This document shows, in pieces, positions 10,532 to 61,273 of a stretch of DNA of 61,273 bases; the first letter of the stretch is position 1, and each line of letters begins with the position of its first letter. Source of the stretch: Defluviitaleaceae bacterium. GTDB lineage: Bacteria > Bacillota > Clostridia > Lachnospirales > WRAX01. Location of the stretch: assembly GCA_009780415.1 (NCBI GenBank), contig WRAC01000009.1:1-61273 (forward strand). The letters are read 5' to 3'. The notes below the pieces were generated by a model that made no database searches, was not told the DNA's origin, and saw only the letters and a list, made by a program, of their open reading frames with translations. The position numbers and the translations under genes were made by a program.

Positions 10532-13500
10532 ATGGGAAAAAAATCAACTGCGGCAAATAAGCGCGTACTAAGCTGGTTTATTGCGCTTTGTATCATGCTT
10601 ACGGCTTTGCCTGCCGCCGTCCTGGCTCACGGCCCCGGTGAAGGCGGGGAAATCGAGGTATCCTATGTCTTGGATGAATGGGAGACCTTCCCGGACGGCG
10701 TGACGGTTACCCGTATAGGCACGGACGACCATGTCCTGAAGCTGGATATCAATATCGGAGCGGAGGACGCGGCGGAAATCCTTGCGGGCGGGGGCGCTGT
10801 TTTGGAAATTCCCTTTGCCGTCGCCCACAACTCCGGCAGGCGGCTCGTAGCGTGGACGGATTTATCCGGAGCGCCTAACGAAATTGACGACTTCACCTTT
10901 GCCACGCGTGAAAATCAGGAAGCCGGCATAGTCGTAAGGTCAGACCTCCTGGCGTCCGGTACGGAACACGCGAGTATTTTGATTCCGAAGGAGCTGCTCT
11001 TTGATGAGGCCGCAAATAAAACGGCATCCGAAATTTACCTCATCTTTACCACGGATAATGTAGACGACGCGAGTACTCCCGGCGGGAACAGGGGCGCGTC
11101 TCCCAGAGGCGGCGTAAACGGCGTTGACCTTGCCGCCGAGTTTGATATCTTTGAAAGAATTATGTTATCAGCCGTCTATACAATGCCCTGTCCCGGCGAC
11201 GACGAGATTGTCATTTCCGATTGGGATATCTTCCCGGACGGCGCGTCTGTAACCCGCATAGGCACCGATAATCATGTCCTAAAGCTGGATATCGTTATCG
11301 CGCCGGAAGGCGTTTCCGCGATACTTGAGGGCGAGGGCGCTGTTTTAGACATCCCCTTTGCCGTGGCGCACAATTCCGGAAGGCGGCTTGTGGCGTGGAC
11401 GGATTTATCCGGAGCGCCCGGCGAAATTAACGACTTCACCTTTGCCACGCGTGAAAATCAGGAAGCCGGCATAGCCGTAAGATCAGACCTTTTGGCGTCC
11501 GGCACGGAACACGCAAGCGTTTTTGTTCCGAAAGAGCTTCTCTACAATGAAGACGCAGAAAAGGCCGCGGCAGAAATATACTTAATTCTTACCACAGACA
11601 ATGTGGACGACGCGAGCACTCCCGGCGGGAACAGGGGCGCATCCGCGAGGGGCGGCGTAAACGGCGTTGACCTTGCCGCCGAATTTGATATTTTTAAAAA
11701 AATAATGCTGACGGTGACTATCCCCTGTAAATGCGACGGCGGGATTGAAACAGTTTTCACGCACATTTCGCTTGCTCCCGGAGCCAATCCTACGGAAATG
11801 GGTTTCGCCTGGTTCACGGAGAAGGGCTTCACAGATACGGCGATACTCCAGCTTGCGAAGTACTCCGAGCTGGTTAACAGGGCGATGCCGGAAAACCCGC
11901 TGGAATTCATAGGCGTGAACGGTATAGGCTCGTCCTTGTTCGATACAAACAAGGTAACGGTTACCGGCCTTGAAAACGATACAACGTATGCGTACCGTGT
12001 CGGTAACGGCGAAGAGTGGAGCAGGATATATACCTTCAACACGCGGAATCCAGAGGGTTCGTACCGGATTATCGTGGTATCCGACCCGCAGATCAGCAAC
12101 GAAGATGACATCCCCGTTTGGCGGAATACGGCTGGGATAGCGGTTGAAAATGCCCCTGACGCCGCGTTTATCATGATTCCGGGCGATCTTGTCGACTACG
12201 CCAATGACCCTGCCGAATATTATGGTTATTTAGCGCCAAGGGAGCTTAGGAGCTACCCTGTCAACGCCGCTCCCGGCAACCACGACCTCCCCGCCTTTAT
12301 GAGGCAGCATCTCGAACAAGTCGCCTATATGCCTTTAATCTACCAGTGGCCTAACGCGCACTATATCGAGGACGGCCTGTTCAGCGGCTATAACTTCTAT
12401 TTCAGCTATGGCAATACGCTGTATATAACCATTAATTCAAACATCAAGGACATTGAGGACCACAGGGCGTTCATGGAAGAAGCCGCCGCCTCCCATCCCG
12501 GCGCGGTATGGCGTATCGCCAACTACCACCATGACATTTACGGCGCAGGCGACCATGCCGGCTCAGGGTACGGCGATTCAGCCGCCATGCAGGAGGATTG
12601 GTCGCCATTCATGGACGAGTTCGGGATTGACATTGTATTCAACGGACACGACCATATCCACGCGCGCTCATATTTTATCAGGGGCGATGACATCAAGAAG
12701 TACCAAATGCCCACCGTTTTGCTTCAGGATATAACCCAGGCTCATCCCTCCGGGGCGTATATCGCGCCGGACGGGGTATTGTATTTGTCGCTTTCAACGG
12801 CAGGCACCAAGTTCTATGACCCCGAAATGCAGGTATGGGTGGCTTATACCCCGGGCAGATCCGATGTACAGGAGTACACGGTTATGACGGTGGACGGCGG
12901 CAGTGTTACGGTTGAAACATACCGCGTCGATACCAACGAAATGCTCGACAGCATTACCATCCGCAAAACGGCCACATTTGATGATTTGCAATCCCTTATC
13001 CTGGGCTGTGAAGCGCTTGAGCGCGGCGATATCCTTGAGCCGGGCTGGCTGGCTTTCCAGGCGGAGATTACTGAAGCCAAGAAGGTTGAGTCCGCAGGGC
13101 TTGCTGACGATATCCACAACATGTATGTAACGCTTTATGACGCTTTCTACGCACTTGAGGTGTCTACCGACAAAGCAAAACTGACGGCGCTTATCATTCA
13201 AGCCGCGGAAAAGCTGGATACCGCAATGGAAGGCCTTTGGGCGGGTCAGTATCCCTTTGGCTCAATTGCCGAATTGCAGCTTGCTTTTGACCCGGCGCTT
13301 GTGGTCTATGAAGACAGGCTGGCTACGCAGGAGGCGGCTGATGCGGCGTACGCCGTGCTGGATGCCGCGTTCACCGCGTTTGAATCATTAGTCAGCAGCA
13401 TCCCCATGCCCTGGGTTTACGTCCACGAAATCAAAGCGGAAGGCGTAACAGTGGTCGATTTGCTGGACTGGATGGATGACGGGCGCACATACACCTTAGG

Positions 13501-20690: not shown

Positions 20691-22169
20691 TTGGCAAGAA
20701 AAGTTACGCCGGCGGGCCTGAGGACGGGCGGCGGGTTCGGGCTTGATGTTTTTAAAGCGGAAGGCATGGAGCAAATACACGCCGCTGCGCTTGAGGTTCT
20801 CGCGAACGAGGGAATAAAAACAAATTGCAAAATGGCGCTTGAGATTTACGCGGGCGGCGGCTGCGATGTGAACGCGGGCGAGGGCAGGGTGAAGATCCCC
20901 GCGCGTATCGTTGAAGCCGCGATAGAATCCGCTCCGTCAAGCATACTTTTCGCGGCCCGGGATGAGGAAAACGATTTTGTGATGGAAGGAAACAACGTTC
21001 ATTTTTGCAATTTCAGCAAGGGTGTCAATGTTGTTGATATCTATACGGGCGAATACCGCGAATCCACGTTGGAGGATCAGAAAAACGTCGCGCTGCTTGT
21101 AGACGCGCTGGAGCAATACGATTTGCTGGATGTGGCGGTGGAAACGCGGGATATCCCAGATGCAATCGCTAATATCGCCAGCTACGAGGTTATGGCGGCG
21201 AACTGTTCAAAACACAGCGGGCAAAGCGCCCACAGCAAACGCGAAGCCGAAATACTTATCGAAATGGCGTCGGTTGTCGCCGGGGGCAGGGAAAACCTTA
21301 GCAAACGCCCGATAACGTCCACGGTGGTCTGCCCGACAAGCCCGTTGTGTATTAACACGGAAACTACAGAGCCCATCATCGTTTACGCGGAGAATAATGT
21401 GCCCTGCACCGTCCTTTCGATGGTGATGGCGGGCAGCACAGCTCCCGTAACCCTTGCGGGAACGCTGGTTGTGCATAACGCGGAAGTGCTGTCAGGCATT
21501 GTTTTAGGGCAGCTAACGAGAAAAGGCGCGCCCAACCTTTACGGCAGCTCCACAACGATTATGGATCTGCGTACGGCGGCTGTGTCCGTCGGATGCCCGG
21601 AACTGGCTATTTTAAGCTCCGCAGTGGCAAAGCTGGCGGATTTTTACAAGATCCCCTCATACCTTGCCGGCGGGTAGACGGACAGCAAGCTTGGCGACGA
21701 GCAAGCGGGCCACGAAAAAACCCTGTCCATGATGCTTTCGGCGCTTGCCGGGGCCAATATGATTTACGGGCTGGGTATGATAGACCTTGGCATGACGCTT
21801 GATTTCGCACAACTGGTCGTTGATAACGAAATTGCTAAAATGACCAGGAAAATACTTGAAGGTATTCCTGTTACGGCAGATACGCTGGCTGTTGAGGTAA
21901 TCCGCGCGGTAGGCGCCGGCGGGCACTTCCTCACGGAGCCGCATACCCTGAAAAACATGAAAACCGTTCAGGCGCAGACAAAGCTATTTGACCGCCGGCC
22001 CTATTCGCAATGGCACATGATGGGCGGGCGGGATTTAGCCGCGCGCGCGGGCGACGAGGCGCGCAAAATTCTCAAAAACCACGTACCCAAGGCTTTGCCA
22101 AGTGATGCCGCAAGCAAACTCCGCAATATTGTGAAAGCGGCGGCTGAGGAATTCGGGGTACATATATGA
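20691..22169 (+). CDS. mttB: trimethylamine methyltransferase MttB with in-frame UAG (pyrrolysine)
   Basis: A single gene of 492 codons read through an in-frame UAG at 21675-21677 (codon 329). Both halves are in the same frame and both belong to MttB. The upstream half contains VCPTSPLCINTETTEP and LYGSSTTIMDLRTAAVS. The downstream half continues TDSKLGDEQAGHEKT and GAGGHFLTEPHTLKN. Methanogen MttB (about 495 residues) carries pyrrolysine at about position 334, in the same context before TDSK. The enzyme moves a methyl group from trimethylamine to a corrinoid protein. The start is TTG after AAAGGATG. It overlaps the next gene by 4 nt. The pyl genes must lie outside this window. Confidence 0.9.
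21675..21677 (+). other. UAG codon decoded as pyrrolysine
   Basis: TAG at codon 329 of mttB, flanked by YLAGG before and TDSKLGDEQAG after. No frameshift, substitution cluster or new ribosome site is seen around it. The next in-frame stop is the true gene end at 22169. Confidence 0.9.
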
Positions 22170-23578
22170 GCTTTGGACAACTACCGGAAAAGAATATACA
22201 CGAAATACATGAGAACGCTTTGAATCTCCTTGAATCAACGGGTGTGCTTTTTAACGATCCTGAAGCGGTTGAAATCCTTACGTCACACGGGGCATCCGCC
22301 GATGGGAGTATTATACGCTTCCCGCGAAACATGGTTGAGGAGGCGGCAAAAAAAGTTCCGTCCGAGTTTGATTTATATGGCGCTGATGGAAACGCGCTGC
22401 GTATCGGCGGTAATGAAACCCATTTCGCGGCTGGTTCATGCGGGATCAGGATACGCGGCAAAGAAGGCGCGATAAAACAATCCGTAGGAGTCGATTTACG
22501 CGATATAGTCCGGCTGACTGACGGTTTGGACAACATTGCGCTCGCGTCAAGCTCCGTTGTGCCGCACGAAATCCCTGAAGCAATCGGTGACAGCTACCGC
22601 GTGGCTCAACTGCTTCAAAACACGCGCAAACCCTTTGTTACGGGCGCGTTTTCGGCGCAGGGGCTGTTTGATATATATGAATTGCTTGAAGCGGCTTGCG
22701 GCGGGAAGGATGCCTTGGCGCGAAAACCCCGCGCCGTGCTGGACGTTTGTTCACTTTCGCCGCTTAAATGGACGGATGTCTCATGCCGGAACTTAATCGA
22801 CGGGGCGCGGCTGAACCTGCCGCTGGAGTTGATATCAGCGCCGCTTATAGGCGCAACGGCGCCAATGACTCTGTACGGCTGTGTTTTGATGCATACGGTT
22901 GAGATTCTCAGCGGCATCGTACTTATCCAATGCGTAAATCCTGGTAATAGAGTTGTATATGGCGGCGCGCCGATGTATTTCGATATGCGCCGCAGCACCA
23001 CATCGCTGAACTCCGTTGAGACAAGCCTGGTCGGCGCGGCGTACGCGCAAATGGGGCGTTTTTACGGATTGCCCACACATATTTACGCATGCCTTTCGGA
23101 CGCGAAATCAAACGACGCTCAGGCCGGCCTTGAAAGCGGCATAAGCGCGCTGATGGCGGCGCAATCAGGTTTTAACATAATCTCCGGCGCGGGGATGCTT
23201 GAGTTTTGCAATACGTTCAGCCTGGAAAAATTGGTTATAGACAACGAAATAATCGGAATGGTGAAACGGCTTGCGAAGGGAGTATCATGCGGCGAAGAAG
23301 AGATGGCGGCGGGGCTTATCGGGGAAATGGGACCGGGAAGCGATTATCTGTCAACCGGGCATACGTTTAAATGGTTTAGGAAAGAGCCGTATCTGCCGTC
23401 GGATGTTATTGACAGAAAGAATCTGGAACTTTGGCAATCCGAAGGATGCAGGACAGCGGAACAGAAGGCGTCTGATATAGTAAGCAAAAAATTGGCGCAG
23501 GTAAACGGCAAACCGCAGGAAATCAAGGATGCGGCGGAAGCGGTTTGGGAGAAAATAAGAATGCGGGAGGGTAGTTAG
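22166..23578 (+). CDS. MttB superfamily methyltransferase without pyrrolysine
   Basis: 470 residues, homologous to MttB along the whole length (VVPHEIPEAIGD, APLIGATAPMTLYG, VVYGGAPMYFDMRRSTTS, GAGMLEFCNTFSLEKLVID). At the pyrrolysine position the context CLSDAKSNDAQAG has Leu. Non-pyrrolysine members such as MtgB, MtpB and MtcB demethylate glycine betaine, proline betaine or carnitine; which substrate applies here is unknown. Its ATG overlaps the mttB stop by 4 nt (translational coupling). It ends in UAG immediately before the corrinoid-protein ATG. Confidence 0.85.
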   Translation: MSFGQLPEKNIHEIHENALNLLESTGVLFNDPEAVEILTSHGASADGSIIRFPRNMVEEAAKKVPSEFDLYGADGNALRIGGNETHFAAGSCGIRIRGKEGAIKQSVGVDLRDIVRLTDGLDNIALASSSVVPHEIPEAIGDSYRVAQLLQNTRKPFVTGAFSAQGLFDIYELLEAACGGKDALARKPRAVLDVCSLSPLKWTDVSCRNLIDGARLNLPLELISAPLIGATAPMTLYGCVLMHTVEILSGIVLIQCVNPGNRVVYGGAPMYFDMRRSTTSLNSVETSLVGAAYAQMGRFYGLPTHIYACLSDAKSNDAQAGLESGISALMAAQSGFNIISGAGMLEFCNTFSLEKLVIDNEIIGMVKRLAKGVSCGEEEMAAGLIGEMGPGSDYLSTGHTFKWFRKEPYLPSDVIDRKNLELWQSEGCRTAEQKASDIVSKKLAQVNGKPQEIKDAAEAVWEKIRMREGS

Positions 23579-24211
23579 ATGCTGGATAAAATAACCGACA
23601 GCGTTTATAAATACGAAATGGCGGAGATAGAGGGCCTTGTAAAGACAGCGCTGGACAGCGGCATTACCGCCAAAGATATATTAATCGACGGGTTGATGAA
23701 GGGCATGGAGGCCGTGGGCGAAAGCTTTAAGGAAGGCGATTACTTCGTCCCGGAGGTGCTGATGTCCGCAAAAACCATGGCGGCAGGGCTTGAAATTATT
23801 AAACCCATGCTGCTGGACACTTCCGGCGCGGGGTTCAGCCGGGGTAAGGCCGTAATCGGCACTGTGCAGGGCGATCTGCACGACATCGGCAAGAAGCTGG
23901 TGGGTATGTTCATGGAAGGCGCTGGATATGAGGTTATCGACATCGGCATCGACGTACCGGCGGATAAGTTTATCGAAGAAGCAAAAACGCGGGACGCTGA
24001 TTTCCTGTGTATGTCCGCGATGCTTACAACCACGATGAAACAGATGAAGGTAGTTATTGATAAAATGAAGGAAGCCGGGATTTACGGGAGGTGCAAGCCT
24101 GTCGTCGGCGGGGCTCCGCTTACGCATAAATTCGCCGAGGAGATCGGCGCGCATTACTCCTTTGACGCAGCCTCGGCTGTCGATTTGTTGAATGGTTTAT
24201 TGGCAAATTAG
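23579..24211 (+). CDS. methylamine-type corrinoid protein (MttC-like)
   Basis: 210 residues. The N-terminal helical cap domain spans ~1-85 (LVKTALDSGITAKDILIDGL, EGDYFVPEVLMSAKTM). The B12-binding Rossmann domain spans ~90-208, with the cobalt-ligand His in GDLHDIGKKL (about residue 101), VIDIGIDVP and VGGAPLTHKFAEEIGA. It receives methyl groups from one or both adjacent MttB proteins and passes them to a second methyltransferase, which is not in this window. It starts directly after the preceding UAG, with GGGAGG as ribosome site. Confidence 0.9.
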   Translation: MLDKITDSVYKYEMAEIEGLVKTALDSGITAKDILIDGLMKGMEAVGESFKEGDYFVPEVLMSAKTMAAGLEIIKPMLLDTSGAGFSRGKAVIGTVQGDLHDIGKKLVGMFMEGAGYEVIDIGIDVPADKFIEEAKTRDADFLCMSAMLTTTMKQMKVVIDKMKEAGIYGRCKPVVGGAPLTHKFAEEIGAHYSFDAASAVDLLNGLLAN

Positions 24212-24274
24212 ACAAATTATGTTTTGCGCGGCATTACTAAATTATTCCCCGGTGTTAAGGCGCTGAACAAGCAA

Positions 24275-24315
24275 AAAAGTAACCGCTGACTTATTATAAA
24301 TCATCGGTTACTTTT
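24275..24315. terminator. terminator of the mttB operon
   Basis: AAAAGTAACCG (24275-24285) pairs with CGGTTACTTTT (24305-24315), followed by CCTTTT. The A/T-rich stem ends make it usable on both strands, closing both the mttB operon and the convergent SASP gene. Confidence 0.75.
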
Positions 24316-44217: not shown

Positions 44218-45516
44218 CTATTTTCCTGCTATTGAAACATTCTTAACCAAAACCGTTGCCGGGCCGTCATAATTATTATATCTTGCGCGCTCGGCGGATA
44301 GGAGCATATCGCCGTGTACTTTTTTTATGTTTCCGGAAACTGAGCCGCCTGTAACAGGTACGGTTTCTGTTCCGTCGTAATAAAATCCAAACCGGATTTC
44401 GCCGGCAAAATCGCCTGTCATAGAGTTCATTTGAAAATCGCTGAAAGAGATAAGCTCCAGATACGGAGCGGTTTTCATTTCGGAAACGGGTGTGGAGCCT
44501 CCGGTAATCACGCGGTTTTCGATATTTCCTGTAACCGGGGCGTTCAGGTAGCTTGAAAACCGCAGATCGCCCCACAGCTGCATAAGCCTGCCGTCCTTGA
44601 CTACGCAAACCTTTTTAAGCGGCGTCCCGTTATTATCGTAAGGCCTGGAACCGGTTGAACCGGGTAAAAATGGGTCAAGCTCCAAGGTAAACCTGTCACC
44701 GGCACATTCACCCTGCAGCTCGTCGCCCACGGCGAAGGTTGAAATCTTGGTGTAGATACTTGAAGCGTTTGAGTTCTCGTAGTAGTAATTAAAAAACTCA
44801 TTTAAGCATTCCCCGGTCAAAAGGACATTGACATCGTTTACAGATGGGGTAGGCACAGCAAGCGGCTTTTGCGAGGCTATATTAAACAGCTTCTCCACAC
44901 GCCCGCCAATTAACGCCGTATCGCAGTCCGCAAGTTTATAAGCCTCGAAGTTCTCGACCTCGCCGCCATCCCTCCAATGCACGGAAAGCTCAATATCAAC
45001 GGAGTAAGCAGTGTAGCGGACATCGACGCCATTTGAATTTATTATGCGGATGCCTGATTGATCAACAAAGAATTCACTGTAGCTTATATTGCCTTTATCA
45101 TGTTTGTCCTGCGCGTAGACGGCTTCGCGAAGCTTCGACATAGTTTTATGGACGCCAAGAGCGGGAATACCGCTTGTAAATTCTCCGGTAGGGGCAGCAC
45201 CCTTTTCTTCCAGCGGATACATTTCGTTTTTTACAAATCCCGCCGCGAAGAAGGCTTCATCAATAACGTTCTTAATTTCCTCACGCGTCATGCCGGGATG
45301 GATGGTCGCGTCCGCCGAACCCCTGAAGGATTTGCCGTCCTCCTCAAACACCTTATAAACCGTAAGGGCGATAGCATCAGTATCTACGCCGCGATTCATC
45401 TCAAGGCTTTTTTTGATGTAAAAGCTCTCGGCGCGGGATTTCTTCCGTTCGATCAAACGGTATTCAAGCCCTTGATTTTTATACTCGTCTAAAATAGTAA
45501 TAAGCGCATCCAGCAT
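44218..45516 (-). CDS. TldE/PmbA-like protein (pair 1)
   Basis: 432 residues from the ATG at 45516, which shares one base with the stop of the TldD partner. It has the TldD/PmbA fold but no HExxxH, as expected for the non-catalytic partner TldE. Recognisable parts are TIHPGMTREEIKNVI, VDQSGIRIINSNGVDV, FTLELDPFLPGSTGSRPYD and VTGNIENRVITGGSTPVSE. TldD and TldE form a heterodimer that hydrolyses unstructured peptides. Its partner is the gene directly upstream. Confidence 0.85.
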   Translation of the reverse strand: MLDALITILDEYKNQGLEYRLIERKKSRAESFYIKKSLEMNRGVDTDAIALTVYKVFEEDGKSFRGSADATIHPGMTREEIKNVIDEAFFAAGFVKNEMYPLEEKGAAPTGEFTSGIPALGVHKTMSKLREAVYAQDKHDKGNISYSEFFVDQSGIRIINSNGVDVRYTAYSVDIELSVHWRDGGEVENFEAYKLADCDTALIGGRVEKLFNIASQKPLAVPTPSVNDVNVLLTGECLNEFFNYYYENSNASSIYTKISTFAVGDELQGECAGDRFTLELDPFLPGSTGSRPYDNNGTPLKKVCVVKDGRLMQLWGDLRFSSYLNAPVTGNIENRVITGGSTPVSEMKTAPYLELISFSDFQMNSMTGDFAGEIRFGFYYDGTETVPVTGGSVSGNIKKVHGDMLLSAERARYNNYDGPATVLVKNVSIAGK

Positions 45517-46943
45517 CAGCCCAGCCTCGCTTTCGTCTTGATATAGGGCCCGCCGCAGGAGACTTTTACCCATTCTTTATACCCCTTGCCGCATCCGCCC
45601 GCGCCGGTGAGCTCAAAGCCGTCCTCCTCACGCGATACCATGGTAATATTCGATAGAAGCTCCGGCACATACCCCGTCATTATGACAGGCGCGTAAAGGT
45701 TTCCGGTCAGCTTGCCGTCAATGATTTCACGCGCGGATGTGAACATGCACTGGATGCCCCAATCCTTTGGGTCCTCCATTCCGCTTTCGGCGCTTTCGAT
45801 CAGGAACCCGTGTTTTAGTGAGGAAATCATATCGTCAAGTTTATCGTTTCCGGGACGGATTAGGGTGTTGGACATGCGCGTATAGGCTTTTCTGGCAAAG
45901 CTTTCGCGCCTGCCGTTGCCGGTGGGGGTTTCGCCCAGCTTCAGCGCGGAGAGCAGGTCGGAAATGCCTGTTTGCAAAATACCGTCTTTGATAATCACCG
46001 TGTCTGTTCCGAGTGTGCCTTCGTCGTCGAACAGATAAGACGCGGCATGGCTGGCCGATTTGGCGCCGTCATGCATCGTGACGTGCTTGCTTGCCACGGG
46101 CTTGCCGAGATACTCGACGGCCTTGGCGCGGTTTTTTACGAACATGTCCATCTCAACACCGTGCCCGAAGGCTTCGTGAGCAATGATGCCGACGGCGTCC
46201 GGCCCGCAGATTACATCGTATTCTCCGGCCTGCATAGGTTTCGCGTCCAGAAGCTTTACGGCGTTTTCAACGCACCCGGCGGTTTTTGATTCAAGCTCGT
46301 CAAGGATTTCAAGGCCTTTTAAACCTGAGCAGGAAGTGTAAAAATACCTTGTATTGTCATCTCGCCTTACGACGGCAACAATTGCGGCTTCGGATATGAT
46401 ATAGTTTTGCTCCAGGTCTTTCTTGGATGAAATGAAAACCTTCGACACCGCCGCGGTTGTGCAGGTAACAATGAGGTCTACTAAAACGTCGCACAAGTTA
46501 TGGGCTTTTTCATTTATGGCGCGTAAGCGCGCCAGCTTTTCGGCGGAGGCCATTGAATTTGGCAAGATTGCCACTTCGCCGTGGTAGCTTATGGTTGCGG
46601 ACTCCTCTTCGATCAAAGGGTAGCGGATGATATCGGCCGCCATTTCAGCCGACTTTTTTGCGTTTTCAACTATGGTTTCGGCCAGTTTGTCCGCGCCGCC
46701 CGGGGGCAGATTGTTAAATGAGTACTCGTAATACATGCCGTTTGTATAAACGCGTGCTACAAAACCGCGTTCCTCAAGAGGGATATTCGACACGGACGAC
46801 GATTTATCGCGGACGGTGAAGCTTTTGCCGGAAACATCGGTGCCAAGGACGGAGACATATGCGAATTGATTTTCAAGTAATCCCACAAGCCGCTTGATTT
46901 CCGGCTTTTGAGATGCTAAGAAGTCTGATACCGGTACTTTCAA
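45516..46943 (-). CDS. TldD-like metallopeptidase (pair 1)
   Basis: 475 residues. The zinc motif HEAFGH is in GIIAHEAFGHGVEMDMF; the C-terminus has ELTGAGGCGKGYKEWVKVSCGGP, quoted here in part as GAGGCGKGY and VSCGGPYI. Further family features are GTLGTDTVIIKDGILQTG and RMSNTLIRPGN. It should be the catalytic subunit, with the zinc site working on peptide chains in the cytoplasm. The gene is the third of four tldD/tldE-like genes in one run on the minus strand. Confidence 0.88.
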   Translation of the reverse strand: MKVPVSDFLASQKPEIKRLVGLLENQFAYVSVLGTDVSGKSFTVRDKSSSVSNIPLEERGFVARVYTNGMYYEYSFNNLPPGGADKLAETIVENAKKSAEMAADIIRYPLIEEESATISYHGEVAILPNSMASAEKLARLRAINEKAHNLCDVLVDLIVTCTTAAVSKVFISSKKDLEQNYIISEAAIVAVVRRDDNTRYFYTSCSGLKGLEILDELESKTAGCVENAVKLLDAKPMQAGEYDVICGPDAVGIIAHEAFGHGVEMDMFVKNRAKAVEYLGKPVASKHVTMHDGAKSASHAASYLFDDEGTLGTDTVIIKDGILQTGISDLLSALKLGETPTGNGRRESFARKAYTRMSNTLIRPGNDKLDDMISSLKHGFLIESAESGMEDPKDWGIQCMFTSAREIIDGKLTGNLYAPVIMTGYVPELLSNITMVSREEDGFELTGAGGCGKGYKEWVKVSCGGPYIKTKARLG

Positions 46944-47010
46944 ATAGACACCTCCATGTATTGATTAAGCGGATATAAAGTCCGCCCTTGCGTATGGCAT
47001 GGGCGTTTAA

Positions 47011-48258
47011 TTACAACCAGCCGCCAATGGTAACTACATTCATGTCCATAGCCAGATATTTAAAGGGGTTGTGCTTGGACAGGCCGTCGGCGGACAGGCC
47101 GATGAAATCCTTGCCGAACATGTCGAACACGTTGGAACGTATGGAAATCTGGGGCAATCTGCCAAGCAGGCGCGCGCCGTCGAAGAGGAAGGCGCATTGT
47201 ACGGGGGAGGCATACTCGCCCTGTGGGGTAAAATCGCCGCCGGACGCGAATACGACGTATATGGCCTTGCGCCCGCCCAAGAGTTCTTTTATGGTTTTGC
47301 CGCTGGCGCGCACATTTATAGAAGTTGGGAAGGTGTCCGGCACGGAATCGTACTCGCCGCCTGCGGAGCCTGTTGCGGCATAACCAAATTCCTTGGCTAT
47401 CTTTTTGGAGGAGTACGGGGATTTTAACACGCCGTTTTCGATAAGCGCGAAGGAGTCGCCGGGCAGTACAGTGCCTTCCGCGTCAAAGAAGGAGGAGTAA
47501 TAATCAAGAGGGCCGCGTTCAACACAGAGCGAAAAATCGTCGGCGAAGAGCTTCTGCCCGATTTTATCCGTAAACAGGGACGCGCCCGTTCCCATCATCC
47601 GCCCGTTTAAATCCGTCAAAAACTTTGCTAAAATATCATCATGCTCATATAAAAATACAACAGGCATTTTTTCTTCCGGGAGCGATACCTTTTCTTCATA
47701 ACCGGCGCAGGTTTGCGAAACGGTGTTAAAAACGTCGTCCAAATCATAACCGCGTGAAAAACTGATGCCTAAGCTGTCCATCATGTTTTTGGATTCCTTG
47801 TGCTTCATAAGCAGCACTACTTTAACGGTTTTGTCCTTGAATACAAGGTTTGCGCCGTTGCTGTTTCGAAGCCTGGTTTCCGTTTCGTTGTATATTATTT
47901 GATGGTTTACGGCGAATTGCGGATATTGCTTTGCCAACTTTTCCAGCAGAGTCTCCGATGTCTTGATAAAATCCTCATCAGATAAGGCAAAACTATCCGA
48001 CAGATCCACTGTCCTCTCAATATTCCCGGCAGGCTCACAATTATACGGCACCTTAAAGTTGAGCATCTGTTTCGCCCGGTTTGCAAGCTTCGCTTCATCA
48101 TATACTCCGATTGCGCCCGCAACGCCGATAATACCGTCATTATAAAGGCGCAGGCCGGTCTTAGCCGTGTCCGATTTTAATATGCCCGTAATTTTATTAT
48201 TAGTAACGCTTAAAATAGTTTTCTTAACCTTTTGGCTGTAAAGTTCATTTATCATCAT
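47011..48258 (-). CDS. TldE/PmbA-like protein (pair 2)
   Basis: 415 residues; no HExxxH. Parts: MKHKESKNMMDSLGISF, SFDAEGTVLPGD-like FFDAEGTVLPGDSFALIENG, TSINVRASGKTIKELLGG and FASGGDFTPQGEYASPVQ. It lies 12 bp after pair-2 TldD and 67 bp before pair-1 TldD. It is clearly different from pair-1 TldE, so the two pairs are old duplicates, not recent copies. Confidence 0.84.
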   Translation of the reverse strand: MMINELYSQKVKKTILSVTNNKITGILKSDTAKTGLRLYNDGIIGVAGAIGVYDEAKLANRAKQMLNFKVPYNCEPAGNIERTVDLSDSFALSDEDFIKTSETLLEKLAKQYPQFAVNHQIIYNETETRLRNSNGANLVFKDKTVKVVLLMKHKESKNMMDSLGISFSRGYDLDDVFNTVSQTCAGYEEKVSLPEEKMPVVFLYEHDDILAKFLTDLNGRMMGTGASLFTDKIGQKLFADDFSLCVERGPLDYYSSFFDAEGTVLPGDSFALIENGVLKSPYSSKKIAKEFGYAATGSAGGEYDSVPDTFPTSINVRASGKTIKELLGGRKAIYVVFASGGDFTPQGEYASPVQCAFLFDGARLLGRLPQISIRSNVFDMFGKDFIGLSADGLSKHNPFKYLAMDMNVVTIGGWL

Positions 48259-48269
48259 GCTGCCCCCTT

Positions 48270-49610
48270 TTATTGTACCTGCATGTTTTTAACGCGGATA
48301 TGCGGGCCGCCAAAGCCTACGGACAACGGGAACTGAGCCATTTTACCGCATCCGCCGGTTACAAAGCTTCCCATAGTAAGGTCGTTGGCTATGCCGTCTA
48401 TGTTTTCCAGCGCTTCGAATACGTTGCCTGAAATTACGGATATACGGACGGGCTTGCCGATTTTACCGTCCTTTATGTAATAAGCGAGGGATGGCGCAAG
48501 GGTAAAAGTGGACATGCCGGAGCCGTGGATTACGCCTTTGACATATATACCGTTTTCCGTTTCGGAGATAAGCTGGTCAAGGGTTTTCGCGCCATTTTCA
48601 ATATATGTAGTCGTCATGCGGACAAGGGGTTCGTGTTCAAAGTCCATCGCGCGCGCGTTGCCCGTAACATCCTCGCCAAGGTCGGCGGCGCTGGCGGCGC
48701 TGTGCAGGCGGCCTGTTAGAATGCCGTTTTTAATCAAATATGTTGTAGTGGCGGCGTTACCTTCATCATCGTAAATAACGTATCCATTGCCCTCCACCAA
48801 GCCCGATTCAACAATAGTCAAATCTTCCGGGCCGACTTTTTTACCCAGCGCCCATTCCTTGCGCGTGGCTTCATCGCCGATCATAAAATCGGATTCGCTC
48901 TTATGCCCAAAGCATTCGTGTACAAAAACGCCTGTGGGAACATGAGACATCAAAACCGGATAAATGCCAGGCTCCACGGCTTCCGATTCCAATAAAAATT
49001 CTTCGCACTCCTTGATTAGTTTGGTTATGCCTTCTTCAAAATCTTTAAGCTCGTTGAAACGTGTTTTTCCAATCTGATAGGATTCGCGCATCTGACGTTC
49101 GCCTTCGGCCATTTGGAAGCCTGTGGATAACCCGGCGCGCTGGAAATCCCATGTAAGCTCCGCGCCTTTACTGTTATAGAATTCCTTAACCTTATACTCG
49201 TCAAGATAATTTAACATCCAGATCTTGATATACGCGTTTTTTTCAACAAGCGGCATCAGTGATTCCAGCAGCGACACTTTTTCCTGAAGCGGTACGTTGG
49301 AAACCTCGTGCCCGGTAAAGACAAGCTTTTTGTCCTTCTTATCGCTGAAGTTCTTAAAAACCGGCATGTCTTCAAGTCCGACGTTATTGGCCGCAAGCTT
49401 AGCCAGCCCGTCTATCTCTGCCTGTACCGACGTTAAATCCGATGTGCTGGCGTAATACCAGCGGATTCCATCGTAGGCGCGTATAAAAGCCGCGCTGTAC
49501 TGGCGTTCCTTGCATTCATCAAGCGTCTTTAACGTATACCTGATACGCGTACTGAACAAATGCTCAATGCGTACGTCAACATACAGCCCTTTGGGGAAGT
49601 TATACTGCAT
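48270..49610 (-). CDS. TldD-like metallopeptidase (pair 2)
   Basis: 446 residues. Zinc motif HECFGH in TGVFVHECFGHKSESDFM; VEGNGYVIYDDEGNAATTTY; VIHGSGMSTFTLAPSLAYY; TGGCGKMAQFPLSVGFGGP near the end. It is the first gene of the four-gene run. Like other TldD proteins it probably works with the adjacent TldE. No small peptide gene that could be a dedicated substrate is seen nearby. Confidence 0.88.
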   Translation of the reverse strand: MQYNFPKGLYVDVRIEHLFSTRIRYTLKTLDECKERQYSAAFIRAYDGIRWYYASTSDLTSVQAEIDGLAKLAANNVGLEDMPVFKNFSDKKDKKLVFTGHEVSNVPLQEKVSLLESLMPLVEKNAYIKIWMLNYLDEYKVKEFYNSKGAELTWDFQRAGLSTGFQMAEGERQMRESYQIGKTRFNELKDFEEGITKLIKECEEFLLESEAVEPGIYPVLMSHVPTGVFVHECFGHKSESDFMIGDEATRKEWALGKKVGPEDLTIVESGLVEGNGYVIYDDEGNAATTTYLIKNGILTGRLHSAASAADLGEDVTGNARAMDFEHEPLVRMTTTYIENGAKTLDQLISETENGIYVKGVIHGSGMSTFTLAPSLAYYIKDGKIGKPVRISVISGNVFEALENIDGIANDLTMGSFVTGGCGKMAQFPLSVGFGGPHIRVKNMQVQ

Positions 49611-50214: not shown

Positions 50215-50555
50215 GGGGGTGTAATGGTTTCGACGGGAGTATTTTCTGCATGAATTGCCATCCGCAACGGTAAATGCGTTAAAATGCCAACAAAAAATAA
50301 ACAACAATAATAATTTAGCTTACGCCGCGTAATCGCGGCCGTCGGTCTTAATCACCCCGCTGATTAAACCACCGGCGTCGACTTTGCGGGGAACTGCGCC
50401 GCCAGTAGCTTTGAAACGGCGCAAGAACTAAAAGCTACCCAAAGCTCCCGCGTGTTGGTTCGCGTCTGCTTTGGGGAATCTTAAATAACCAACTGTGATG
50501 GGAGACGTTTGTGTAGACATGTTTTCGGACAGGGGTTCGATTCCCCTCACCTCCA
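50215..50555 (+). ncRNA. ssrA: transfer-messenger RNA (tmRNA)
   Basis: The 5' end GGGGGTGTAATGGTTTCGAC and the 3' end with GGTTCGATTCCCCTCACCTCC form the tRNA-like domain; GGGGGUG (50215-50221) pairs with CACCUCC (50548-50554), with A555 as discriminator. The tag reading frame ends NNNNNLAYAA and stops at about 50332, with a C-terminus recognised by ClpXP-type proteases. The start of the tag (resume codon) is not clear. The 3' CCA is not encoded: the next bases are CTT. tmRNA rescues stalled ribosomes together with SmpB. Confidence 0.93.
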
Positions 50556-50557
50556 CT
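50530..50557 (+). other. candidate prophage attachment core in ssrA
   Basis: The 3' end of ssrA is a frequent phage integration site. Here host genes end and phage genes begin right after it, and the expected CCA is interrupted after one C. The other att copy and the integrase lie beyond the window, so the exact core cannot be set. Confidence 0.5.
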
Positions 50558-50653
50558 TAATAACTTCAAAACCGAACCCGCCTAAATTCATTTTTGTAAA
50601 TGGGTTGTTCGGAATCGTGATTGAGCGATAACAGGCGAAAAGTTAAAAAAAAT

Positions 50654-53321: not shown

Positions 53322-54044
53322 TTATACTGTTATTTCGCGCCAACCAAATACAGACGGCTCCCAAATGTTACCGTTGCCGTGTATATTTTCCCAACGCTTG
53401 CCGTTATGCGTTACCTTTGCCCCTGCTGGGTATGCGTCATGCCCTCCAAGGGGTTGTATCCATTGCGGGAACTCTTCGGCGGGGTCTGCAATCCGCGTCC
53501 ACATAGAAGGGGTCGCCGACGGCTTTGTATTTTGCCCCGCGTTTGTTACGTTATGGATTGAGCGGTACAATTCGCCGTTGTCTCGAACGATTGTACCCGC
53601 GTTTCCGCGCCAACTTTCAGACCACAACGGAAAAAGCGTCGGTGCGGTTATTGCCACGTCTTCGGGCGCAAATTGCGCTATTTTTTCAATAGTCGCCCTA
53701 AACTCCAACGCTTCGCCCCTGCCGCCCGCGCCGCCCATAATGGTTGTTACAACGCTTGTAAGGTCGCTTATTTCTGCGGCGGCTATTGCTTCGGGCTTGT
53801 GGGTCTTTGCCGTCAAAATCCATTTGTCGTAATTTTCTTCAATGTCGGCGGCAAGGTCGGGTCGGTCTTGAACAATAATCGCGTATTCGTCGTATTCCCA
53901 AAACTTCACGGCTTCGCCGCCGTCAACCTTCGCTTCAATTTCGTTTGAATTTTCAAAAAATCGAACGAACATAAAGCCCGCCCTGTCGGGTTGTGGGTGA
54001 ATGTCATATGCCGCCGACGGTGCTTGATTTCCTCTTACTCTCAT
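53322..54044 (-). CDS. phage tail protein with C-terminal chitin-binding-like domain
   Basis: 240 residues from the ATG at 54044 (GGGAG ribosome site); a TTG at 54053 is also possible. The first part (~1-70) resembles short tail-fibre-assembly or XkdW-like proteins. The C-terminal ~75 residues carry repeated aromatic motifs, LYRSIHNVTNAGQNTKPS and GAKVTHNGKRWENIHGNGN, then WEPSVFGWREI, like carbohydrate-binding modules of the ChiC/CBM5-12 type. It overlaps the 3' end of the reverse transcriptase gene by 41 nt. It probably binds host surface sugar. Confidence 0.65.
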   Translation of the reverse strand: MRVRGNQAPSAAYDIHPQPDRAGFMFVRFFENSNEIEAKVDGGEAVKFWEYDEYAIIVQDRPDLAADIEENYDKWILTAKTHKPEAIAAAEISDLTSVVTTIMGGAGGRGEALEFRATIEKIAQFAPEDVAITAPTLFPLWSESWRGNAGTIVRDNGELYRSIHNVTNAGQNTKPSATPSMWTRIADPAEEFPQWIQPLGGHDAYPAGAKVTHNGKRWENIHGNGNIWEPSVFGWREITV

Positions 54045-55095
54045 TTCTAACAACTCCCTTTATTATTTTTAATGGCAATGTGTCAACGTACTTTCGCTTT
54101 AAGCCCTGCGATTTGAAATGCCGAAGCTGTCCCGCCCGCGCAAGGAAGCCCGCCGCCAACTTGTGCGGTATCACGCGCCCCGCCCTGTGTATTTTCGCAA
54201 TGCGCCGCGAATGACGCATAAGGGATAAGGCGTTGCGGCGGCGTTGGGTTGTATAACCTAAAGAAAAGCAAAAGCCCACAAAGTCAATAGGACGGTCTTT
54301 ATAACCGTTGCCCGCTTTTCTAATCCGAAAAATATTCCAATTCGGGTGTATGCTTAAACCCATTTCGGCAAGACGCGCTTCAACGTCTTTTACCGCCTTT
54401 TTTAATTTGCGCTTGTTGCTGTCAATCAAAACCATGTCGTCAATGTAACGAATGTAAAAATTGACTTTGTGCGTTTCTTTCAAAAGGTTGTCAATGGGTG
54501 TTAAATAGAAATTACAAAACCAAGCCGACGTATAATTGCCAATCGGCAAGCCCTCGCACGAACGCACGATTTTATCAATAAGCCACAACGCCCGCTTGTC
54601 TTTTATCAGACGTTCAAACGCCCGCATAAGCGGGTCGTTGGCAATGGTCGGGTAACATTTTTTAATATCCAACTTAACGGCGTACTTTGCCTTGTTCCTT
54701 CGTTGTAAGGTCGCCCGCTCCACGCCCTTTTTTGCATGACTTGTACCCTTATTCGGTCGGCTTCCACAACTCCAATGGTACATACGTTTTTCAAGTATCG
54801 GCGCAAGGACTTGTAAAAGCGCGTGTTGTACGCACAAGTCGGGAAAGAACGCGGGTACTTGCGTTTCCCTTTGCTTTCCCTGCAAGCGGTCGTTTATAAC
54901 AATGTTTCGGTATAACGTCGGCTTGTACGTCTGATTTTTAAGCATTTTATGAAGTATCGCGGCATACTGCCCGATATTGTCAAAAATAGGCTTAACGTCT
55001 TTTCGGGTTCGCTTACCATACGAAGCGTTGTATATTGCCCGCTTGCAATTGTCATAATGGTAAATTTTTTCGTAAATGTTGCCTATCCGTTTCAT
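54004..55095 (-). CDS. DGR-type reverse transcriptase
   Basis: 363 residues. It makes mutated cDNA from the template repeat RNA. Visible RT motifs: QVPAFFPDLCVQHALLQVL (~79-97), catalytic Asp in YAVKLDIKKCYPTI (D143), motif 4 GLPIGNYTSAWFCNFYL (~182-198), active site YIRYIDDMVLI with YIDD at 217-220, and IDFVGFCF (~270). The order and spacing match retroelements of the DGR class. In most DGR enzymes motif 4 reads xGxxxSQ; here the Gln is Ala. There is no intron maturase or RNase H domain. Position next to TR and VR confirms the class. Confidence 0.92.
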   Translation of the reverse strand: MKRIGNIYEKIYHYDNCKRAIYNASYGKRTRKDVKPIFDNIGQYAAILHKMLKNQTYKPTLYRNIVINDRLQGKQRETQVPAFFPDLCVQHALLQVLAPILEKRMYHWSCGSRPNKGTSHAKKGVERATLQRRNKAKYAVKLDIKKCYPTIANDPLMRAFERLIKDKRALWLIDKIVRSCEGLPIGNYTSAWFCNFYLTPIDNLLKETHKVNFYIRYIDDMVLIDSNKRKLKKAVKDVEARLAEMGLSIHPNWNIFRIRKAGNGYKDRPIDFVGFCFSLGYTTQRRRNALSLMRHSRRIAKIHRAGRVIPHKLAAGFLARAGQLRHFKSQGLKRKYVDTLPLKIIKGVVRNESKRKSSTVGGI

Positions 55096-55229
55096 GGGAT
55101 AACCTCAATTCTTCTTTTTACCTCGCGCCCTTTCGGTCGTCCTACTAAGCCGCGTCCCTACGGTAAAATTTTTTGGTAAAAGACCACGGAATAGCCGCGC
55201 TTAAAACAAGAAAGAACTTCTTTGTAAAA
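55096..55229. other. spacer between RT gene and template repeat
   Basis: No ORF. It contains the RT ribosome site (GAGG, minus strand) and a 7-bp hairpin, CTTCTTT (55217-55223) with AAAGAAG (55228-55234), that touches the 3' end of the TR. It may belong to the structured RNA that primes cDNA synthesis. Confidence 0.5.
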
Positions 55230-55345
55230 AGAAGACGCGCCCCGACGTTCGCATTGACAATCGAAGAATCGTTATTGACATTCCACGCGAACAAGCCCGC
55301 CCTGCCGCCGTTGTTCCAATTCCCGCCGACGATAGCAAGCCGCCA
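55230..55345 (-). repeat. DGR template repeat (TR)
   Basis: 116 bp, non-coding, between the variable-protein gene and the RT gene, same orientation. It aligns without gaps to the VR at an offset of 213 bp, with 103 identical positions. The 13 differences are at TR positions 249, 254, 255, 261, 269, 272, 275, 276, 282, 303, 311, 321 and 333 (add 55000). Every one is T on the plus strand, that is A on the sense strand. 7 other sense A positions are unchanged. Confidence 0.95.
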
Positions 55346-55397
55346 CGAAAGGCGCGGCTATCCCAAAATTTAAAACATTAAAAGACTTTAAGACCGC

Positions 55398-55417
55398 AAG
55401 GGGGATAAATCCCCCTT
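55398..55417. other. 8-bp hairpin with 4-nt loop downstream of VR
   Basis: AAGGGGGA (55398-55405) and TCCCCCTT (55410-55417), loop 4 nt, 25 nt past the VR on the sense strand. In the Bordetella phage DGR a similar 8-bp, 4-nt-loop hairpin or cruciform just after VR helps retrohoming. Confidence 0.6.
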
Positions 55418-55423
55418 CCTAAC

Positions 55424-55435
55424 CCCCTATCGGGG
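55424..55435. other. 4-bp GC hairpin with GATA loop at the stop codon of the variable protein
   Basis: On the sense strand CCCC-GATA-GGGG, 7 nt past the VR. The loop fits the GRNA pattern reported for DGR hairpins, but the stem is only 4 bp (plus one G-T pair). Confidence 0.4.
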
Positions 55436-56989
55436 AATACATAGAAGACGCGCCCCGACGTGCGCAACGACAAGCGAAGAAGCGCTACCGACATGCCACG
55501 CGAACAAGCCCGCCCCGCCGCCGCTGTTCCAATACCCGCCGACGACAGCAAGCCGCCAACCCGACGCGCTAAACCAATAACAATCACATAAAAACGTCGT
55601 TTCCGAACCTCCCGCGTTTGCCGACGGTAAGCCCGCCCACGGTTGAAGAACGTCGAAGCCAAGCCGCGTTGCATACGTCCCCGAACCCGACGCGGGAAGG
55701 GGAATTGCAATCGGCGTATAATTGGTTGCCGTATCGTCTGCGTAATTCGCGGGGTCGTTTGCGAAAAGCATTTGCCCCGCGTTGACGTTGAAGCCGTCTA
55801 CGAACTCCCAAACATTGCCGTAAGGGTTTTCAATCCCGCGCCATACAACCGACAAGCCGTTAGCATTTGCGCCCGCTTCCCGCCCTGTGCCTATTATCGA
55901 ATTTGTGCGCCCTGTCAATAACGCCGCCGCTGTCGCGGTGTTGCCGCCGCCGATAACCGCTTGCGTATTAAGGTTCGCAAATTCAATTTTAACAAGCAAT
56001 TCCAACGCCATGCGCGTTGTAAGGTCTTGCAAACTCCAATTCGTACCCTTACCCCTTGCCCCTATGCGGAACTGGTCGCGGGTTATGCTTACAAGCGGCG
56101 CAAGCCCGCTTCGGCTAACGTGTCCCGCCCCTGTTTCGTATGCCCCGACATAAATGTAAGGCGCGTTGCCCCACGGTCGGGCAAAAGCGGGGTGAACCGT
56201 AAACCCGCTTGTAGGTACGTTGCTTATCCATTCGCGGCGTTGGGTTGTGTCTTGTTCAATGCGGTAATAAAAAAGCGGTATTTCTACCATTACATCGGCG
56301 GCGGTGTACGAAAAGCCCGCTTGCCCTTCGTAAGCGGTAACAACGCCGCTTGCATTGACGTTACAACGGCGTATGTCTTTATATACAGGCATTTCGTCGA
56401 AGTCTGAAAAGCCTTGCGCCGCTCCAATGCCCGCCGTTGCGACAAGCCCTACCGCGTCGTCAAGCCTTACAAGGTTCGGCGAAGGGTTTGTAAAATTCCA
56501 TGCAACGCCCATTCTTGCATTTACAGGGCGAACAGGGGTTACACGCCGCAATATCGCTTCAACGTCGCGTTTTATTACCTCCGTTGCCGCCGCTATGTCG
56601 TCAACGCTTTCTTGACTTGCCCGCGTTAAATCCATTCCCGAACTGAAAAAGGCTTGATTTGATACGCGGTCGAAGTTTACTACCGCTACGTCGCCAGCCT
56701 TGAAGCCCGCGCCCTGCGGTGTAAAATCAACCGCCCCAATGCGTAATACCGCCCCCGCTTGAAAGTCGTTCGGAAAACGGCAACGAACGGAAAAGGTTTC
56801 GGGCAACGTCGCTGGAATCCCGCTTGCAACGTCGGGCGATAAATTATTGATTGCCACAATGTAAGCGTTGCCCCCTGCGTCATAAGTCACGTCGGCGGCA
56901 AGTGTTAAGCTGTCGCCGATAATTGCGTTGTTGGCATTTATGATATTATGCCAATCGGGTTGTGTCTTGATTAAATTTTGCAATACCAT
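55427..56989 (-). CDS. DGR variable protein, C-type lectin-fold phage receptor-binding protein
   Basis: 520 residues. The N-terminal ~150 residues probably attach to the tail (VARRV-type beta region and helix). The C-terminal ~250 residues look like the formylglycine-generating-enzyme/C-type lectin fold of DGR targets (IENPYGNVWEFVDGFNV, then CDCYWFSASGWRLA, GYWNSGGGAGLFAWHV and HVGARLLCIPR). Only the last 43 residues contain the VR. Variable positions lie among conserved Gly, Trp and Arg. Gene stop is UAG. The gene follows the baseplate gene by 15 bp. It probably binds the host surface and is the diversified protein. Confidence 0.9.
   Translation of the reverse strand: MVLQNLIKTQPDWHNIINANNAIIGDSLTLAADVTYDAGGNAYIVAINNLSPDVASGIPATLPETFSVRCRFPNDFQAGAVLRIGAVDFTPQGAGFKAGDVAVVNFDRVSNQAFFSSGMDLTRASQESVDDIAAATEVIKRDVEAILRRVTPVRPVNARMGVAWNFTNPSPNLVRLDDAVGLVATAGIGAAQGFSDFDEMPVYKDIRRCNVNASGVVTAYEGQAGFSYTAADVMVEIPLFYYRIEQDTTQRREWISNVPTSGFTVHPAFARPWGNAPYIYVGAYETGAGHVSRSGLAPLVSITRDQFRIGARGKGTNWSLQDLTTRMALELLVKIEFANLNTQAVIGGGNTATAAALLTGRTNSIIGTGREAGANANGLSVVWRGIENPYGNVWEFVDGFNVNAGQMLFANDPANYADDTATNYTPIAIPLPASGSGTYATRLGFDVLQPWAGLPSANAGGSETTFLCDCYWFSASGWRLAVVGGYWNSGGGAGLFAWHVGSASSLVVAHVGARLLCIPR
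55443..55558 (-). repeat. DGR variable repeat (VR)
   Basis: The last part of the 520-residue lectin-like gene (residues 478-516). The invariant GC-rich end at 55443-55461 (sense 3' side) fits the initiation-of-mutagenic-homing sequence. Compared with TR, 11 codons differ: I482V, N486Y, N489S, R492G, N499H, N501G, N502S, D503A, I506L, N508V and N510H (TR to VR). Confidence 0.95.
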
Positions 56990-60280: not shown

Positions 60281-61273
60281 ATCGCCCCAACCTCCCTTGC
60301 AATTAATTTAAACCCCCTTGTTGCTTCCCGCTGTTGGGCGGCGTAATTGGTTTCGGCGGTGTATATGTTTTGCGTAAGCGCGAAGCCGCCTTGCGTTCCC
60401 GCTTGCCCGCCGCGCCCCGCCGTGTAGGTTGTCGGGTCGGGTATCATGTCGCCGACGGCGTTTTGTACTTCCCGCCGAACTTCGCGCATTTCGTCGGCGA
60501 ATCCTATTCCAAGCCCCATTGCCATAAATTCGCCGATTTCCGCAAATACTTTTGAAGGGCTTGAAATTTTTAATTTCGCTTGCGCTTCCCTTACAAGGCG
60601 GTCAATTTCGTTGTTTACGTCCCGCCGCATATCCGACGAACCATTTATAAACCCTGTCGTAATGCCCCGCGCCATGTCTTGCCCTGCTTGTTGAAAGCGT
60701 CTTACCGCGCTGTTTTGGTTGTTATGGTCGGTCAAGGCGGTAATAATCGGGTTTATGGCGTTGTTTACCTCGCTTGAAATGCCATTTGCGCCCTCTTTAA
60801 TGCCGTTCGCCAACTGTTGCATTAAATCCTTGCCCGCCTGTACAAATTGCGGGTGCGCGTTCTTTATCGCGTCAACAATGGCTTTTATGATTTCGGGTAT
60901 AACTGCGTTAATTTGCGGAATAGCCGCCGTCATGCCCGCCGCTATTTGCTTGTTAATGTCTTCGCCCGCTGTCTTCAATTTTGGGTGTTCGGCGGTAAAC
61001 GCGGTAATAATGGCTTGCGTTATCTGCGGTACAACCTTTGTAACTTCGGGAATTGAAGACGTAAGCCCCGCCGCAACTTGTTTGTTAATGTCTTGCCCCG
61101 CTTGATTAATGCTTTGATGTTGCGCGGTGAACGCGGTTATTATCGCTTGCGTTATCTGCGGTACAACGGCGGTCACGGTCGGAATGGAAGACGTAAGCCC
61201 TGCGGCTATCTGCTTGTTAAGGTCTTCGCCCGCTTGTTTTATTTTGGCGTGTTCGGCTGTGAACGCGGTTATT
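60277..61273 (-). CDS. phage tape measure protein (C-terminal part)
   Basis: The reading frame is open to the right window edge; the last ~330 residues are seen. They consist of tandem 44-residue repeats (VVPQITQAIITAFTA, AGQDINKQVAAGL, TSSIP) followed by a region with ARGITTGFINGSSDMRRDV and the amphipathic helix with SSPSKVFAEIGEFMAMGLGI, a motif common at the end of tape measure proteins. The protein sets tail length and is ejected with DNA. It overlaps the distal tail gene by 4 nt. Confidence 0.85.
   Translation of the reverse strand, partial: ITAFTAEHAKIKQAGEDLNKQIAAGLTSSIPTVTAVVPQITQAIITAFTAQHQSINQAGQDINKQVAAGLTSSIPEVTKVVPQITQAIITAFTAEHPKLKTAGEDINKQIAAGMTAAIPQINAVIPEIIKAIVDAIKNAHPQFVQAGKDLMQQLANGIKEGANGISSEVNNAINPIITALTDHNNQNSAVRRFQQAGQDMARGITTGFINGSSDMRRDVNNEIDRLVREAQAKLKISSPSKVFAEIGEFMAMGLGIGFADEMREVRREVQNAVGDMIPDPTTYTAGRGGQAGTQGGFALTQNIYTAETNYAAQQREATRGFKLIAREVGAI
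60870..61273 (-). repeat. 132-bp tandem repeats in the tape measure gene
   Basis: At least three copies, the last truncated by the window edge. Period is 132 bp (44 codons): for example the sequence CTGCGGTACAAC recurs at 61024 and 61156. The copies are similar but not identical. Confidence 0.8.

Follow-up and report, generated by a model that had tools for sequence, protein, structure and literature searches.

Among natural targeted mutators, diversity-generating retroelements (DGRs) are the best known, and most of what is known of their mechanism comes from BPP-1, which needs Avd. In the BPP-1 element (mtd/TR/brt), the target gene is followed by the template repeat (TR), a structured spacer RNA of 144 nt and the reverse transcriptase (RT) gene, with avd placed between the variable repeat (VR) and the TR; the changes between the repeats fall at A only, the target has a lectin fold, and a hairpin lies past the VR. 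According to a 2026 study, the folded BPP-1 spacer brings in bRT-Avd, and one of the adenines in it primes the cDNA (PMC12875486). Target hairpins of phage DGRs have a GRNA loop and a stem of usually 7–10 bp (PMC3240598). A further point of comparison is the Thermus aquaticus protein TaqVP (5VF4), a lectin/FGE-type fold with the VR at its very C-terminus (residues 341–381, PMC6328139). The DGRs of Firmicutes and gut phages (LBR48 and the IMG/VR loci L003–L006 and L020–L028) also resemble the element described here, sharing with it the RT clade, a related tail target, a TR followed by an RT-18 or RT-18-like RNA, the failure to find bAvd and, in most, a G5/C5 hairpin. The Butyrivibrio phage Arawn also has a DGR with an RT-18-like RNA.

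The window analysed here is the whole of contig C9 (61273 bases), and it carries a genuine DGR. On the minus strand, the gene of a 520-aa tail protein (55427–56989), with the VR at its end (55443–55558), is followed after a gap of 97 nt by the TR (55230–55345), then by a structured RNA and by the RT gene (54004–55095), whose start lies 134 nt from the TR. This is the target-TR-spacer-RT order of BPP-1, with a structured spacer of similar length (134 against 144 nt), A-only changes, a hairpin past the VR and a target that likely has a lectin fold. BPP-1 has an avd gene, for which no counterpart was found here; the two elements also differ in the spacer family (Rfam Phage_DGR in BPP-1, RT-18 here) and in the longer GRNA hairpin of BPP-1, and the two RTs share just 28% identity over the matched part. 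The kind of element is known and the locus itself is new; the element is ordinary among gut phages. A previous interpretation made from the letters alone (the sequence-only reading) had called it a complete DGR, and the A-only repeat pair, the grouping of the RT and the VRs of relatives all favour that assignment.

The repeat search reproduced the TR and VR of 116 bp each, with the 13 differences that had been reported. Every one of them falls at an A of the TR sense strand, so that 13 of the 20 A of the TR are changed (7 A>G, 4 A>C and 2 A>T; hypergeometric p 1.4e-12). When the pair is read in the opposite direction, A is found at just 2 of the 13 mismatches. The A-tolerant repeat score of the observed sequence was 99.1, against a maximum of 18.2 in 100 Markov-resampled sequences, and the claimed signature of adenine-directed mutagenesis withstood the TR/VR search. 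The VR encodes the C-terminal ~40 residues of the target, and the changed codons, mostly AAY, encode the protein tip. A genome-wide search found no second VR or remote target elsewhere in the genome. We consider it close to certain that this is a phage DGR, whose RT would bind the RT-18 spacer, copy the TR and rewrite the tip of the tail protein at A. The TR would be transcribed together with its 3′ spacer, and the RT would bind the folded spacer (the RT-18 RNA) and copy the TR into cDNA, placing random bases opposite A. The cDNA would then replace the VR, and the lectin-fold tip of the tail protein would vary on a fixed scaffold.

The spacer between the TR and the RT start codon (55096–55229, minus strand) contains an RNA of the Rfam family RT-18 (RF03021) at 55110–55185 on the minus strand. 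The Rfam match covers 55111–55181 and scores 44.1 bits against a cut-off of 41.3, and our own covariance model gives 57.9 bits. The fold consists of a hairpin and two nested helices around a UAGUA/GAAA internal loop. The Rfam entry is of type “sRNA”, and no paper naming RT-18 came up in a literature search made without the original description of the RT-n motifs. Searching by RT gave 15 further loci with RT-18 ahead of the RT gene (L023 and L030 being the same sequence), and 13 of these 15 have an A-biased TR/VR pair with RT-18 directly after the TR. In L028 the RNA is present and the TR/VR pair is eroded; LBR48 (L048) has a TR-like stretch, and the search found no VR there. So that finds of RT-18 would not be limited to loci selected by RT, an RNA-first search was also carried out, in which an IMG/VR pattern scan was rescored with our covariance model at a threshold of at least 37 bits. 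It gave seven further loci, one of them from a separate, over-specified pattern scan; all seven have an RT directly downstream, and four have a clear A-biased TR/VR pair. In a plain MAFFT alignment of 15 sequences, both sides change in 12 of 15 base pairs, and the covariation score is 0.650, compared with 0.271 ± 0.029 for shuffled alignments and at most 0.161 with slid partners.

RT-18 thus recurs between TR and RT across a supported RT clade, in the slot that is taken by Rfam Phage_DGR (RF03022) in BPP-1 and by RT-14 in BalMu-1. Given this shared slot with the BPP-1 spacer, the covariation and the recurrence within the clade, RT-18 is most likely the spacer RNA of the DGR clade of the window, and it may, by analogy with BPP-1, recruit the RT and prime or place the start of the cDNA. 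The strongest competing view is that RT-18 serves solely the RT gene, as a leader or regulatory element ending at the ribosome-binding region of that gene, and has no part in the start site of the template RNA. The end of the RNA is indeed purine-rich and stops a few bases short of the RT start codon, in the window as well as in relatives, and Rfam classes it simply as an sRNA. We nevertheless judge this view unlikely, since RT-18, where a TR was found with it, always lies on the 3′ side of the TR and 5′ of the RT, since the slot is that of Rfam Phage_DGR and of the BPP-1 spacer that recruits bRT-Avd (PMC12875486), and since RT-18 marks one RT clade. As a separate observation, the Rfam RT-14 match in the BalMu-1 record (L054, 3834–3977) overlaps the TR and continues past it; RT-14, like RT-18, is probably a DGR spacer RNA under a neutral name.

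The bAvd profile (PF22296) had no match in this genome, where the contig breaks off within the prophage, and none above the cut-off in any RT-18 record searched, many of these records being fragments. It matched only the BPP-1 and BalMu-1 records (E 2e-37 for the BPP-1 gene). The absence relies on this one profile, which a diverged Avd or an unrelated helper could escape. We infer that Avd may not be needed in the window element, and the RT-18 clade as a whole looks Avd-less in these searches. Two hairpins are located past the VR. The first, CCCC-GATA-GGGG (55424–55435, minus strand), contains the stop codon; its loop fits the GRNA rule, and its stem, at 4 bp, is shorter than usual. The second, AAGGGGGA-TTTA-TCCCCCTT (55398–55417, minus strand), has an 8-bp stem with G5/C5 and occupies the same place as in most RT-18-clade DGRs, where a hairpin with a G5/C5 stem lies 20–40 nt past the VR, mostly without a GRNA loop. 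It is conceivable, and we propose it tentatively, that RT-18 DGRs are a distinct class in which a compact RT-18 spacer by itself, with no Avd, places the RT and starts the mutagenic cDNA, and in which the target is recognised by a G5/C5 hairpin and not by one with a GRNA loop. The specialist interest of the locus lies in RT-18 as the spacer RNA of an apparently Avd-less clade: if RT-18 were the starting RNA of such a clade, an unassigned Rfam family would gain a function, and a smaller system of two parts (RT and RNA) would be open to laboratory tests.

The history of the repeats was read from relatives. The nearest different phage, L003, has an RT that is 86% identical to that of the window, and all 16 differences within its own TR/VR pair (16/16) are at A. 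The TRs of the window and L003 differ at 13 positions, 10 of them without any A, and all 10 non-A differences are mirrored in each phage's own VR; of the 19 A sites common to both, 15 carry different bases in the two VRs. Read from the compared sequences, this mirroring shows that the TR was copied onto the VR in the window lineage after its split from L003. Pairs with identical TRs point the same way as regards adenines: the VRs of L020 and L021, from the wider clade, show 18 differences at A sites and a single one elsewhere, and those of L031 and L034, from another DGR group, differ at 14 positions, 14/14 at A. The adenine-biased VR variation that the sequence-only reading expected was seen among relatives, whose VRs vary at TR adenines and hardly anywhere else. 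A single further copy of the window element came up, L002; its VR is identical to that of the window, and the two look like the same strain. Another RT-18 DGR was seen in genome G197 (L041, 644–6828), with a 1655-aa surface protein carrying S-layer-like repeats as its target; 3 of its 13 TR/VR differences lie away from A, its RT frame is apparently shortened at the start, and by these signs it looks like a decaying element.

Region 4 of the window RT reads IGNYTSAW, which begins the motif (I/V/L)GxxxSQ as usual and has A instead of Q. About 90% of DGR RTs carry this motif and functional-looking exceptions have been reported (PMC3521204), so it is usual for DGR RTs and not required. Among relatives, L003 has SA, L004 and L006 have SP, and L005 has SQ; the SA that the window shares with L003 sets it apart from other gut RT-18 DGRs, as does the carbohydrate-binding-module-like end of the gene after the RT (see below). 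The SA, together with the same VR in L002, the only second copy of the strain, and with the decayed look of the related chromosomal copy L041 (non-A mismatches, shortened RT), could indicate a DGR that worked in the past and has since become fixed, its repeats being the record of earlier mutagenesis. We hold this to be quite improbable, because the RT frame is open and complete, no non-A mismatch is found between TR and VR over 116 nt, L003 with the same SA has A-only changes, and TR changes were mirrored into the VR after the split from L003. The element is presumably active today.

The RT itself, a protein of 363 aa with the YIDD active site that had been pointed out before, matches PF00078 (E 2.2e-22) and PHROG 1423 (E 1.7e-93). 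Its best PDB profile match is 8ub7_A, of the 8ub7 series (E 1e-29), which is named “reverse transcriptase” and which we take to be the BPP-1 enzyme. An RT tree was built that took in group II introns and left out retrons. The clade of phage DGR RTs that includes the window and L003, that of the RT-18 elements, is well supported (100/98), and within it these two make up a separate branch; L035 and L036 are also placed there, on a long branch and with unsure placement. The RTs of BPP-1, BalMu-1 and FP_Brigit share the DGR grouping with the window but lie outside its clade, and the group II intron RTs are set apart from the DGR RTs with support of 100/100. The phylogenetic check proposed earlier therefore places the RT with DGR RTs and apart from group II introns, in a tree without retrons. 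Sub-cut-off NCBIfam matches and the general RT models listed by PADLOC might suggest that the RT belongs to a retron, a group II intron or a defence system and that the repeats are a coincidental duplication. The tree and the A-only pattern of the repeats refute this reading, and it is given practically no credence also because the NCBIfam matches are all far under the curated cut-offs and an Rfam search of the window found no intron RNA domain.

The target of the DGR matches PHROG 5302 (tail protein, E 5.9e-74), and the VR ends its reading frame, as had been stated; a Pfam search gave no family. A profile of 12 target relatives has a weak match to TaqVP (5VF4, E 0.007), in register with the TaqVP VR. 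The AlphaFold model of residues 158–520 is of low confidence (mean pLDDT 52, pTM 0.61), and that of the full-length protein is useless (mean pLDDT 39.8). With VIA-align against 970 PDB chains, the model of residues 158–520 had TaqVP (5vf4) as its sole match, with Z 10.8 over 222 residues; Mtd and other lectin-fold proteins are missing from the VIA-align list, which counts nothing against them. The C-terminal part of the target is therefore modelled as a likely C-type-lectin (FGE-like) fold, and the earlier lectin-fold claim gains this low-confidence TaqVP match and lacks a Pfam match. TaqVP and the target share 21% identity and both have the VR at the very C-terminus, and the window protein differs in its long N-terminal part, which probably serves in tail attachment. 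Its place in the tail and the example of known DGR phages suggest that the protein may bind the host.

Tail, lysis and DGR genes span the contig from its end at 61273, where the phage runs off the contig, down to 50693. The lysis end of this prophage fragment adjoins a tmRNA gene (ssrA, 50215–50558, plus strand), which was missed by ARAGORN though matched by Rfam RF00023 with 164.9 bits. The 3′ end of ssrA, sought as a duplicated att site with up to three mismatches allowed, occurs once in the genome. No integrase was seen in the prophage fragment, and four integrase-family matches lie elsewhere in the genome, unlinked to the prophage. An ssrA-linked prophage had been claimed: the adjoining tail and lysis genes bear this out as adjacency only, no att repeat or integrase was found to go with it, and the phage is cut by the contig end. 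Insertion of the phage at ssrA is plausible.

Downstream of the RT, a gene at 53322–54053 on the minus strand overlaps the RT stop by 50 nt. Its N-terminal domain is common to the neighbours in relatives, and its C-terminus resembles carbohydrate-binding module 5/12 (CBM5/12). The gene is conserved among relatives, and several of their versions have a Phage_tail_APC (tail assembly chaperone) domain. It was considered as a new DGR accessory factor and rejected: given the chaperone domains in relatives and the similar chaperones widespread in phages, a role in the tail module is favoured, and from these domain matches it is likely a tail-module gene and not a DGR factor.

Several further features were noted elsewhere on the contig. 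Adjoining the prophage, three long frames of TldD/PmbA-like proteases stand in a run at 44218–49610 on the minus strand, as seen by eye. A tandem pair of similar stretches of ~480–540 bp (10676–11707, spacing 543) is the strongest repeat of the window besides the DGR. Two frames of MttB-family methyltransferases on the plus strand (20691–22169 and 22166–24289) both overlap Rfam PYLIS_3, and the first has an in-frame TAG within GG-O-TDSK. Given the in-frame TAG and the PYLIS_3 overlaps, the host probably uses pyrrolysine.
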